Part shown: positions 12,531 through 18,362 of the stretch, piece by piece
Layout of the letters: the number at the start of each line of letters is the position of its first letter
Position numbering within the stretch: position 1 is the first letter of the stretch
NCBI GenBank assembly: GCA_017355425.1
Contig: CP070233.1
Coordinates: 5,055,501 to 5,119,500, forward strand
Direction: 5' to 3'
DNA length: 64,000 nt
Source: Dolichospermum sp. DET69
GTDB taxonomy: Bacteria; Cyanobacteriota; Cyanobacteriia; Cyanobacteriales; Nostocaceae
The notes under the pieces: generated by a model
What the model saw: only the letters and a program-made list of their open reading frames with translations
Databases searched by the model: none
What the model was told of the DNA's origin: nothing
Program-made: the position numbers and the translations under genes

Positions 12531-13016
12531 ATCGAGGGCGAGAGAAAAAAACTTCAACAACTTCAAGAAAAACTTACAAATTTATTAGAAGAACGAAAAG
12601 CTTGTTATCAACAATATTGTGCAACAATTGACTAAGCTCAAAGAGTTCGTTTAAAACGAAATCTTGATAATTTTGATAAAGAAATAGCTGAAGTAGAAAG
12701 TCAAATAGCTAAAAGGTAACTATCGTCAACAAACAACTGATGTCGGTAGTTTTCAAGTAGCCAATGAATTTGGGTTGTGTGATATGCACGGTAATGTCTG
12801 GGAATGGTATCAAGATGGTTGGCATGATGACTATAAAGGTGCGCCTATAAATGGTAGTGCTTGGTCAAGTCAAAGCGACAATAATCATCTCCTGCGTGGT
12901 GGTTCTTGGGACTACATTCCTGAAGCTTGCCGTTCTGCGTGTCGCAACATTAATCATGCGGGCTTCGACTTCAACAACGTCGGTTTTCGTGTTGTGTGTG
13001 GTGCTGCGTGGACTTA
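12531..13016 (+). pseudogene. Decayed coiled-coil plus FGE-like variable protein remnant
   Basis: The first part (12531-12718) reads as a charged coiled coil: KLQQLQEKLTNLLEERKACY, an in-frame TAA, then AQRVRLKRNLDNFDKEIAEV, ending in a stop. In another frame from about 12716 the C-terminal third of a formylglycine-generating-enzyme-like (SUMF1, C-type-lectin fold) domain follows: NYRQQTTDVGSFQVANEFG, DMHGNVWEW, LLRGGSW and GFRVVCGAAWT. The last 98 or so codons are open; an ATG at 12784 could start an 78-aa fragment. It matches the 3' end of the kinase-FGE gene at 16402-18300, including 3' flanking DNA. The C-terminus looks like a DGR variable region (separate entry). The gene lacks most of its FGE core and is inferred to be broken. 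Confidence 0.7.
12886..13016 (+). other. Candidate DGR variable region (in pseudogene)
   Basis: Codons after LLRGGSW are dominated by NNC/NNT forms at positions that would be AAC/AAT in a template: GAC TAC ATT, then AAC ATT AAT, and TTC GAC TTC AAC AAC GTC before GGT TTT CGT. The constant scaffold (CRSA, GFRVVC) is shared with the copy at 18160-18300, while the surface codons differ. This fits adenine-specific mutagenesis by a diversity-generating retroelement. No reverse transcriptase or template repeat was found in the window. Confidence 0.6.
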
Positions 13017-13084
13017 GTAGTCCTTTATACTCTTGCTCTTTTGCCCTTTACCCTTACGAGCGTAGTGACCTCTTAAAAATTTTT

Positions 13085-16401: not shown

Positions 16402-18300
16402 ATGATTTGCTGCTTAAACCCAGATTGTTCCCAACCTATCAACCCTGATGATAACGAGTTTTGTCAAAGTTGCAGAACCCCATTGATACCATTATTAATC
16501 AATCGCTTTCGAGTATTGCGGTTGCTTTCTGCTGAAGGTGGTTTTGGGAGAACCTATTTAGCGGAAGATAGCCAGAAACTCAATGAAACTTGTGTAATCA
16601 AGCAACTTGCACCTAAACAGTCAGGAACTTACGCTTTAAAAAAAGCCACAGAGTTATTTATTGAAGAAGCTAAACGTTTACAAGATTTAGGAGAACACCC
16701 GCAAATACCAACGCTGTTTGCTTATTTTGAAGATAATGGGTTTCTCTATTTGGTACAACAGTTTATTGAAGGGGAAAATTTATTAGATGAATTAGCACAA
16801 AAGGGAAAATACAAGGAAACCCAAATTCGGGAATTATTACTAGATTTATTACCATCTTTAAAGTTTATTCATGAGCGCCAGGTTATTCATCGGGATATTA
16901 AACTACAGAATATCATGCGCCGAGCCAGTGATGGTAAGTTGGTATTAATTGATTTTGGGGCTTCTAAACAATTAACTACCACAGTTCACACCCAAATAGG
17001 AACACGAATAGGTACTCATGGTTATAGTCCACTGGAACAAATTCAGCTTGGTGAAGCTTATCCAGCCAGTGATTTATTTGCTTTAGGTGCAACTTGTTTT
17101 CATCTTTTAACAGGGGTTCATCCTTTGAATTTATGGAAAAGAAATGGTTTTAGTTGGGTGAATAATTGGCGACAACATTTACCTAGTCCTGTAAGTCAGG
17201 AATTAGGTAAAGTTTTAGATAAGTTGTTGAAAATTGAGATTCTAGAACGGTATCAATCTGCGGATGAAGTCATCAAAGATTTACAAATTCCTTCTACCGG
17301 TTATGTACCTCCAAGCACAAACAAAAATTCATCTTCGGGAAATTCTACAATTATAATAAATGGTAAAATAGATCGTCGCGTTTTTATCTATGGAGCATTA
17401 TCTTTAAGTGCTGTAACTATCCCATTTGTGGGACAAAATTTATTTTCTGGGAAGCAAAATCCAACCTCAATTTCAAATAACCTGAAAACCTTTAGTTTTG
17501 AAGTGGTCAGCACTAACGCAACCGGAAACATCATTAACCGACGTAATGAAAGTGCAAAATATTTCACAGAAGATTTGGGAAGTGGTGTGACATTGGAAAT
17601 GGTGGAAATCCCAGGAGGAACATTTATCATGGGTTCACCGGAAAACGAAGCAGGAAGGGATTCAGACGAAAGTCCCCAACATCAAGTTACTGTTCCTAGT
17701 TTCTTCATGGGAAAATATGAATTGACACAGGCACAATATCAAGCTATCGTGGGTAGTAACCCTTCTCGATTCAAAAGCAATAATCGCCCAGTTGAACGAG
17801 TCAGTTGGAATGATGCAGTTAAATTCTGTGAAAAGTTAAGTCAAAAAACAGGAAAAAACTATAAATTACCCAGTGAAGCTGAATGGGAGTATGCTTGTAG
17901 AGCCGGAACTACTACACCATTTTATTTTGGTGAAAGTATTACCCCAGAATTGGTAAACTATAATGGTAATTACACTTATGCTTCTGCACCAAAAGGCCAG
18001 TATCGTCAACAAACCACAGATGTAGGTTCTTTTCCCCCTAACGCTTTTGGTTTGTATGATATGCACGGTAATGTGTGGGAGTGGTGTTTGGATGATTATA
18101 TAAATAATTATAGTGATGCTCCTAGAGACGGTAGTGCTTTGACAAGTCAAAGTGTATCAATCAAGCTGCTGCGCGGTGGTTCGTGGACCTTCATTCCTGG
18201 CTATTGCCGTTCTGCTTCTCGCAGCGACCTCAACCTCCTCGACGACTACTACTACTTTATTGGTTTTCGGGTTGTATGTAGTGGTGCGGCGAGGACTTAG
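16402..18300 (+). CDS. Zinc-ribbon Ser/Thr kinase fused to FGE-like (C-type-lectin fold) variable domain
   Basis: 632 aa. A zinc ribbon (CCLNPDC...CQSC, residues 3-24) leads into a Hanks-type kinase from about residue 36: glycine loop SAEGGFGRTYLAED, Lys67 in CVIKQL, catalytic VIHRDIKLQNIM near 159-170, and DFG in LVLIDFGASKQ. One membrane segment lies at about 328-345 (VFIYGALSLSAVTIPFVG). From about residue 393 an extracytoplasmic formylglycine-generating-enzyme-like domain follows (MVEIPGGTFIMGSPE, YELTQAQYQ, LPSEAEWEYACRAGT, DMHGNVWEW, LLRGGSW). Its last 45 residues look like a DGR variable region. I infer a receptor-like kinase whose outer ligand-binding surface can be diversified. Confidence 0.85.
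   Translation: MICCLNPDCSQPINPDDNEFCQSCRTPLIPLLINRFRVLRLLSAEGGFGRTYLAEDSQKLNETCVIKQLAPKQSGTYALKKATELFIEEAKRLQDLGEHPQIPTLFAYFEDNGFLYLVQQFIEGENLLDELAQKGKYKETQIRELLLDLLPSLKFIHERQVIHRDIKLQNIMRRASDGKLVLIDFGASKQLTTTVHTQIGTRIGTHGYSPLEQIQLGEAYPASDLFALGATCFHLLTGVHPLNLWKRNGFSWVNNWRQHLPSPVSQELGKVLDKLLKIEILERYQSADEVIKDLQIPSTGYVPPSTNKNSSSGNSTIIINGKIDRRVFIYGALSLSAVTIPFVGQNLFSGKQNPTSISNNLKTFSFEVVSTNATGNIINRRNESAKYFTEDLGSGVTLEMVEIPGGTFIMGSPENEAGRDSDESPQHQVTVPSFFMGKYELTQAQYQAIVGSNPSRFKSNNRPVERVSWNDAVKFCEKLSQKTGKNYKLPSEAEWEYACRAGTTTPFYFGESITPELVNYNGNYTYASAPKGQYRQQTTDVGSFPPNAFGLYDMHGNVWEWCLDDYINNYSDAPRDGSALTSQSVSIKLLRGGSWTFIPGYCRSASRSDLNLLDDYYYFIGFRVVCSGAART
18160..18300 (+). other. Candidate DGR variable region in kinase-FGE gene
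   Basis: After the constant LLRGGSW, codons run ACC TTC ATT CCT GGC TAT TGC, and eleven consecutive codons at 18212-18244 are NNC (AGC GAC CTC AAC CTC CTC GAC and so on). This is remarkable in a genome that favours A/T third positions and is what AAC codons become after adenine-specific mutagenesis. The constant block GFRVVC and the 3' end match the remnant at 12886-13016. Reverse transcriptase and template are not in the window. Confidence 0.7.
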
Positions 18301-18362
18301 TAGCCCTTTACGCTCTTGCTCTTTTGCCCTTTTCCCTTCTTTCTCTTTCCCCTTCTTAACCC

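Follow-up and report, generated by a model that had tools for sequence, protein, structure and literature searches.

A kinase-FGE gene of Dolichospermum sp. DET69 is probably an orphaned DGR target of plasmid-type donors, with a candidate tag behind its stop codon

A kinase-FGE gene with a variable 3' end

The window analyzed here, a stretch of 64,000 nucleotides from the 6.04-Mb genome of Dolichospermum sp. DET69 (G000), contains a gene in which a protein kinase domain is joined through a linker to a C-terminal FGE-sulfatase domain (Table 1). The encoded protein ends in LLRGGSW...CRSA...GFRVVCSGAART. Its FGE domain, which we take to have a C-type-lectin-like fold, has PDB sequence relatives that include variable protein 1 of Treponema denticola (2y3c, E 3.3e-25), presumably itself a DGR target. 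An AlphaFold model of this domain, based on a 30-sequence alignment, was set aside (mean pLDDT 55, below 50 throughout the variable region, VR). The linker contains a borderline hydrophobic segment, for which Kyte-Doolittle values of 1.3-2.0 were obtained in the seven of eight orthologs that gave a value; it is no more than a possible membrane anchor for the kinase, which the first-pass annotation had inferred to be membrane-anchored with an external ligand-binding face.

Table 1. Coordinates of the features discussed. Positions without a contig name refer to the window; C1 and C2 are contigs of G000 and C66 is a contig of Dolichospermum sp. ST_sed8.
Feature	Position	Strand	Remarks
Relic of a second DGR target, truncated FGE fragment	12720..13017	+	VR resembles the template type of G009 (compared by eye)
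VR tag copy behind the relic	13018..13044	+	Sequence match
DGR target gene: 4-Cys prefix, protein kinase, linker, FGE/C-type-lectin-like domain	16402..18300	+	632 aa
Protein kinase domain, residues 45-288	16534..17265	+	Pfam
Borderline hydrophobic linker segment, residues 327-345	17380..17436	+	Mean Kyte-Doolittle 1.52
FGE-sulfatase domain, residues 399-625	17596..18276	+	Pfam and PDB sequence relatives
VR	18166..18293	+	Equals the ST_sed8 and pANA02 templates except mostly at template adenines; one extra codon
Hypervariable core of the VR, 12 consecutive NNC codons	18220..18255	+	Codon reading
Post-stop VR tag, 27 nt, TAGCCCTTTACGCTCTTGCTCTTTTGC	18301..18327	+	Found with most VRs and with none of the templates read
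VR copy L034	C1:800273		Behind another kinase-FGE gene
VR copy L035	C1:462992		Behind a TIR-FGE gene
Common block 1	C66 7380-8928, C2 135439-137001		92%
Common block 2	C66 20414-22693, C2 140405-143473		86-91%
Common block 3	C66 27865-38672, C2 145433-156186		87-97%

The VR lies at the 3' end of a gene for a C-type-lectin/FGE fold, as in DGR targets. Its core is a run of NNC codons that the first-pass annotation had recognized correctly but placed at 18212-18244; the run occupies 18220-18255 and comprises 12 codons, or 11 if the scaffold CGC is left out. Chance is not the source of this run: only 12.8% of the first 580 codons of the gene end in C, and the next longest NNC run in the window, among 37 frames that are open from stop to stop over at least 150 codons on either strand, has 5 codons.

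A matching template, GGTTCGTGGAACAACAATCCTGAAAATTGCCGTTCTGCTTATCGCAACAACAACAACCTCGACAACAACAACAACAATATTGGTTTTCGG, was found immediately 3' of the DGR RT of Dolichospermum sp. ST_sed8 (G013). The window VR differed from it at 18 of 33 A positions and at 1 of 83 other positions (Fisher p=3e-11). Using the 151-base 3' end of the gene as a query, we detected two close copies elsewhere in G000, L034 and L035, and these differed from the same template at 18/31 A and 1/82 non-A positions and at 15/33 A and 2/83 non-A positions, respectively. The alignments were scored without favoring A; L035 aligned gap-free, and the window VR and L034 each needed one codon gap, with 8 and 14 equally good placements. 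The sole non-A position at which the window VR departs from the ST_sed8 template carries the base present in the template of pANA02, a plasmid of Anabaena sp. 90, and where all three VRs have a common difference from the ST_sed8 template, the pANA02 template has an A. The pANA02 template differs at one further non-A position, and there the ST_sed8 template agrees with the window VR. Compared with each other, the three VRs of G000 differed at 16-21 of 32-34 A-sites and at 0-1 of 81-82 other sites, and a pooled genus set of 36 same-length sequences, which still contains one template as well as VRs belonging to other template types, gave 565/1188 A versus 159/2988 non-A differences. The first-pass annotation had proposed a DGR VR at the C-terminus of the kinase-FGE protein; the discovery of a real template in relatives, from which the VR differs almost only at adenines, confirms this proposal beyond codon shape alone, and by its sequence the segment is the VR of a DGR target.

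Two further properties of the VR were analyzed. Relative to the template, the window VR has gained and L034 has lost one codon. These changes fit slippage in AAC runs, which is already in print (PMC12875486; this and the other papers below are cited from excerpts of their text), and hence are not new. Third-position diversity was 0.060 in 17 constant VR codons versus 0.329 in 10 upstream codons (31 of the 64 genus VRs, those of the window type, chosen by protein sequence alone; upstream values from 28 of the 31 genes), which shows that the constant part stems from template copying and is not kept by protein selection alone.

The kinase-FGE gene had DNA matches in nine congeners, most of them including the flanks; in one (G008) the contig ends inside the gene. 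In the eight orthologs that are complete, identity was 87-95% for the kinase and FGE coding sequences, 82-90% for the linker and 50-75% for the VR. The syntenic ortholog of G007 (kinase and FGE coding 91-93%, linker 88%) differed from the window gene at 23 of 34 A-sites and at none of the 82 other VR sites. For three orthologs with the same VR type, the differences fell at 20-24 of 34 A-sites and 0-3 of 82 others, a template-polymorphic site being counted as A; thus, the alignment of related strains called for by the first-pass annotation placed the differences almost entirely at template adenines. At the same locus, G013 and G012 have another VR type, G002 has a further variant, and G004 and G006 have a segment without an NNC run. 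The VR amino acids of the latter two species (L125 and L124) are identical, as in a frozen allele.

Near the kinase target, a second DGR type has left its relic in the segment 12720-13044, together with a tag copy of its own.

The missing mutator and its likely donors

The first-pass annotation had expected an RT encoded elsewhere in the genome and had suggested a genome-wide search for the RT and a template repeat. Neither was found in the G000 assembly, which is 99.99% complete in two contigs. The RVT_1 profile (E up to 0.001) gave 30 matches in G000 with no DGR RT among them; a BPP-1 Brt query (1e-8, all 29 candidates scored) and a cognate cyanobacterial RT query (1e-40, 9 of 38 candidates scored) had no match. 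With the template as query, no template repeat was found in G000: the 108 matches consisted of four VRs and 104 short or weak matches, the best of which (E 1.6e-6, 54 bases) lies in an FGE gene without a recognizable VR. A PLLANI...RYADD block, presumably that of group II intron maturases, was present in 28 of the 30 RVT_1 matches. These approximately 28 RTs of group II intron type are spread over C1 and C2, several with identical scores, and represent a high load. Two other RT-like proteins were weighed as candidates for the missing DGR RT but rejected. One, of 276 aa (L031:2441-3271; G000:C1:1005440-1006270), is truncated: it starts with RVT_1 positions 1-84, lacks the catalytic half and continues into an unrelated tail. 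The other, of 1161 aa (L032:2505-5990; G000:C1:3894004-3897489), has a central RT domain with YVDD and long flanking parts, unlike the DGR RTs of about 350 aa, and is possibly a defense-type RT.

The first-pass annotation had named two observations that together would speak against a DGR: a genome without RT and template, and strain differences not limited to template adenines. The former was made here and the latter was not, the differences lying at A sites, which points to an orphaned target rather than an artifact. That the kinase VR is orphaned may also be an assembly fact, as a single assembly is at hand and a small plasmid may have been left unassembled or lost in culture.

We further checked the occurrence of VRs and RTs in the genus and family, where many genomes are drafts, making RT absences weaker there than in G000. 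VR matches (E up to 1e-6) were found in 15 of 16 genus genomes including G000, and a DGR-type RT was detected with the Brt query in five (G005, G008, G009, G010 and G013), so that 10 of the 15 VR-positive genomes, again including G000, had VRs without a detected RT. A sixth, weak Brt match (G015, E 1.8e-9, 552-aa ORF) had no cognate-RT match at 1e-40. Among the five RT-bearing genomes, the window-type template occurred only in G013; three had other types, and no template was found in one. The donor of most genus VRs is not among the detected cassettes. In the family (210 genomes), RTs were present in 56 at 1e-40; VR matches (at most four candidates per genome scored) were present in 74 at 1e-10, 42 of which had no RT match, and in 25 at 1e-20, 15 of them without RT. 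A GTDB scan gave 22 exact matches to the flank, one of which was a template, and IMG/VR contained no exact match to the VR flank. The genus pattern set consisted of 69 sequences (64 VRs and 5 templates), to which loci L067, L135, L142 and L147 contributed none. At L145 (G010:C14 near 17877), a template-like AAC-rich repeat adjoins a VR; the sole DGR RT detected in G010 is on a different contig and has a different template.

Fewer non-A changes were counted where the window-type template was found. All five VRs counted in G013 had no non-A change outside two template-polymorphic sites, and 33 VRs of other genomes had a mean of 1.5 non-A changes versus 0 in G013 (p=0.007); the G013 side of this comparison is five VRs of one genome, the frameshifted L046 was included, and L058, L069, L145 (twice), L148, L155 and L140, seven rows that belong to other or mixed types, were left out.

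The donor RT found in relatives (P0001), located next to a template and targets, contains the motifs LRYVDD and IGNLTSQ, which we take to be hallmarks of DGR RTs. The 56-kb plasmid pANA02 has the same kind of cassette, with an RT 95.7% identical to that of ST_sed8 and a template region 98.7% identical, along with an annotated Avd and two FGE genes; ST_sed8 has a 117-aa ORF at the place matching the pANA02 Avd. A DGR on a plasmid of Anabaena sp. 90 has already been noted (PMC7517822). One ST_sed8 target has an additional OAA-family lectin domain, and a MoxR ATPase is annotated beside a related cassette on Acaryochloris pREC1; this brings to mind the conflict systems in which targets of this kind have been proposed to act (PMC10907252). 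In Trichormus sp. NMC-1 (scaffold5, L189), a 276-aa frame with the DGR RT motif lies near a window-type VR; the usual length is 350 aa, and this is possibly a cassette in decay.

The ST_sed8 cassette contig, C66, and the 200.8-kb contig C2 of G000 have ordered blocks in common (Table 1), and further pieces of C66 match other parts of C2. pANA02 has parts in common with both C66 and C2, partly in inverted order, and the neighbors of the DGR differ between pANA02 and C66. A module present in both pANA02 and C66 extends as far as C66 20431, and homology to C2 begins at C66 20414. Where C66 has the DGR block, C2 has, between the flanking blocks, 3.4 kb with a Calx-beta/RTX gene (G000:C2:137178-139988). 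Judged from the common blocks alone, the contig C66 is plasmid-like, and G000 has a related replicon that lacks the DGR block; this arrangement is compatible both with loss of the block and with its never having been gained.

A candidate tag behind the stop codon

From the 27-nt tag behind the kinase-FGE gene, a pyrimidine tract runs on to about 18350. In G000, the segment 18286-18350 occurred behind each of the three VRs and behind the relic, and nowhere else (the fifth match had E 0.64), and the relic has the tag although its VR is of another type. A consensus of 27 nt derived from the genus was matched with at most 8 mismatches by 61 of 64 genus VRs (shuffles average 13.3), and the tag was present in none of the five genus templates. 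Outside the genus, in a set independent of the consensus, 22 of 25 VRs had at most 7 mismatches, the failures being two Microcystis VRs (10 mismatches) and one Nostocaceae VR (14); all 16 templates there had 13-17 mismatches. Among the frame ends of the window, 36 of 37 had at least 11 mismatches, the exception being the kinase-FGE gene. When the 63 bases from the stop codon were used as a query, 69 matches were obtained, distributed over 14 of the 16 genus genomes. Of these matches, 44 immediately follow a VR match, 21 follow another FGE match (sorted against 37 selected places, a subset of the FGE matches) and 4 are neither. Reading 18 of the 25 non-VR matches revealed VR-like C-termini in 14, the end only in one and none in three.

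No hairpin or cruciform was detected 3' of the VR in five flanks folded as DNA (z -1.04 to +0.90), and a recipient site of the BPP-1 hairpin type was rejected for the 3' flank on these values. The excerpts of PMC7517822 went no further than to suggest a cis feature of some kind as a possible mark of remote targets, and no description of the tag was found in those of PMC7517822, PMC3240598, PMC8144416, PMC10907252 and PMC8867640. As read from sequence, this pyrimidine-rich, hairpin-free post-stop element marks VRs of several template types and is an apparently new candidate homing tag.

It is conceivable, at somewhat less than even odds in our estimate, that the tag of cyanobacterial DGR targets (consensus near TAGCCCTTTAYACTYTTGCNCTTTTRCCCT) replaces the phage-type hairpin as a landing signal regardless of template type, such that tagged sensor genes would be long-term chromosomal residents and the mutator (RT, Avd and template) would visit on plasmids. 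A role of this kind would be consistent with the absence of the tag from all 21 templates and from two G000 FGE paralogs without a recognizable VR, and with tag identities of 0.84-0.88 where upstream coding identity was 0.50-0.65 (paired tags within 9 mismatches of the consensus only; some of the low coding values may reflect broken upstream frames). On the other hand, the tag is positioned in the 3' UTR and most of its carriers are homologous FGE genes, and it may well be a mere transcription terminator or a 3' remnant carried along with duplicated genes, with no function in homing. The ortholog comparison does not favor the tag: the segment 18301-18345 was 64-98% identical between orthologs, often below the DNA behind it (83% versus 93% in G013, 82% versus 96% in G006), which lowered our estimate for a role in homing and raised that for the absence of one, a reading we regard as a serious contender without favoring it.

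Origin of the targets and comparison with known systems

DGRs are established to act by mutagenic retrohoming at adenines. We consider it probable (roughly 0.85) that the kinase-FGE gene is a DGR target overwritten by a pANA02-type donor that is now absent, leaving its targets orphaned. cDNA of an AAC-rich template, with adenines randomized, would have been written over the 3' end of the gene, and the same retrohoming would have hit two or more further chromosomal genes, with the DGR type now carried by pANA02 and ST_sed8 C66 as the writer. This plasmid-borne donor may have acted in trans on tagged chromosomal sensor genes and then been lost; since the 200-kb contig is without the DGR block, the targets would now be orphaned, and frozen unless the plasmid returns or was not assembled. 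The tag would be what makes a gene a target, and the variable face of the FGE domain may be a ligand sensor gating the kinase.

Alternatively, the system may be active now, with RT and template on an unassembled plasmid diversifying the kinase in trans. pANA02 is indeed a separate 56-kb replicon in a congener, and the non-A sites of the G000 VRs are nearly clean (loads of 0, 0 and 1), but the completeness of the two-contig assembly and the presence of the related replicon without a DGR block make this unlikely. A much less probable explanation dispenses with retrohoming in this lineage and attributes the spread of the three VRs to gene duplication together with ordinary conversion between paralogs. 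The 23-base 3' flank, which occurs at exactly three places in G000 (up to 3 mismatches allowed), all of them VRs, is identical in the three 3' ends, and the gene has relatives elsewhere in G000 (7 DNA matches, itself included); however, conversion would level A-sites and other sites alike, and the three VRs differ at about half or more of the former and almost none of the latter. Ordinary positive selection on an FGE binding loop without any DGR, which might be suggested by variable residues confined to one domain segment with a presumed surface position, is refuted for practical purposes by the template match, by synonymous sites beside the variable codons that hardly vary and by changes that follow base class (A) and not codon effect.

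The probable orphaning of the targets suggests that targets and mutator are separable in this hypermutation system: targets are resident in 15 of 16 genus genomes, and the window-type donor was found in one of the 16 and on one plasmid. It thus becomes possible to test which genes undergo rewriting, at what time and through whose enzyme, with the tag as a short candidate address label. If the tag works, DGR targets could be listed in genomes without a DGR, where they are invisible to RT-based surveys; if the mutator is a visitor, diversification would come in bursts on plasmid arrival and leave a fixed receptor repertoire after departure.

The targets described here resemble those of cyanobacterial DGRs (Vallota-Eastman et al. 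2020, PMC7517822), in which a kinase or TIR domain is combined with a C-terminal CLec domain, the VR is at the 3' end of the gene and VRs are located far from the RT. That set, however, consists of genomes with complete cassettes, whereas here VRs persist without detected RT and template. The trans-acting DGRs of Thiohalocapsa PB-PSB1 (Dore et al. 2024, PMC10907252) have RT and template in the same genome, unlike G000. Bordetella phage BPP-1 (PMC3240598) also has a short conserved recipient mark just 3' of the VR, beyond the homology between template and VR, but that element is a GC-rich hairpin/cruciform with a demonstrated function, whereas ours is a pyrimidine-rich candidate with no significant fold. 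Similar to our case, Treponema denticola isolates have targets but no RT or template, and the differences between their orphan VRs and a template of related isolates lie mostly at adenines (PMC4891356). Those targets belong to one species and 62% of them have lipoprotein signals, whereas here signaling proteins across a genus are involved and the donor type is found on a replicon family that G000 holds in a DGR-less form. Orphan VRs are therefore already known from T. denticola, and the post-stop tag is apparently new.
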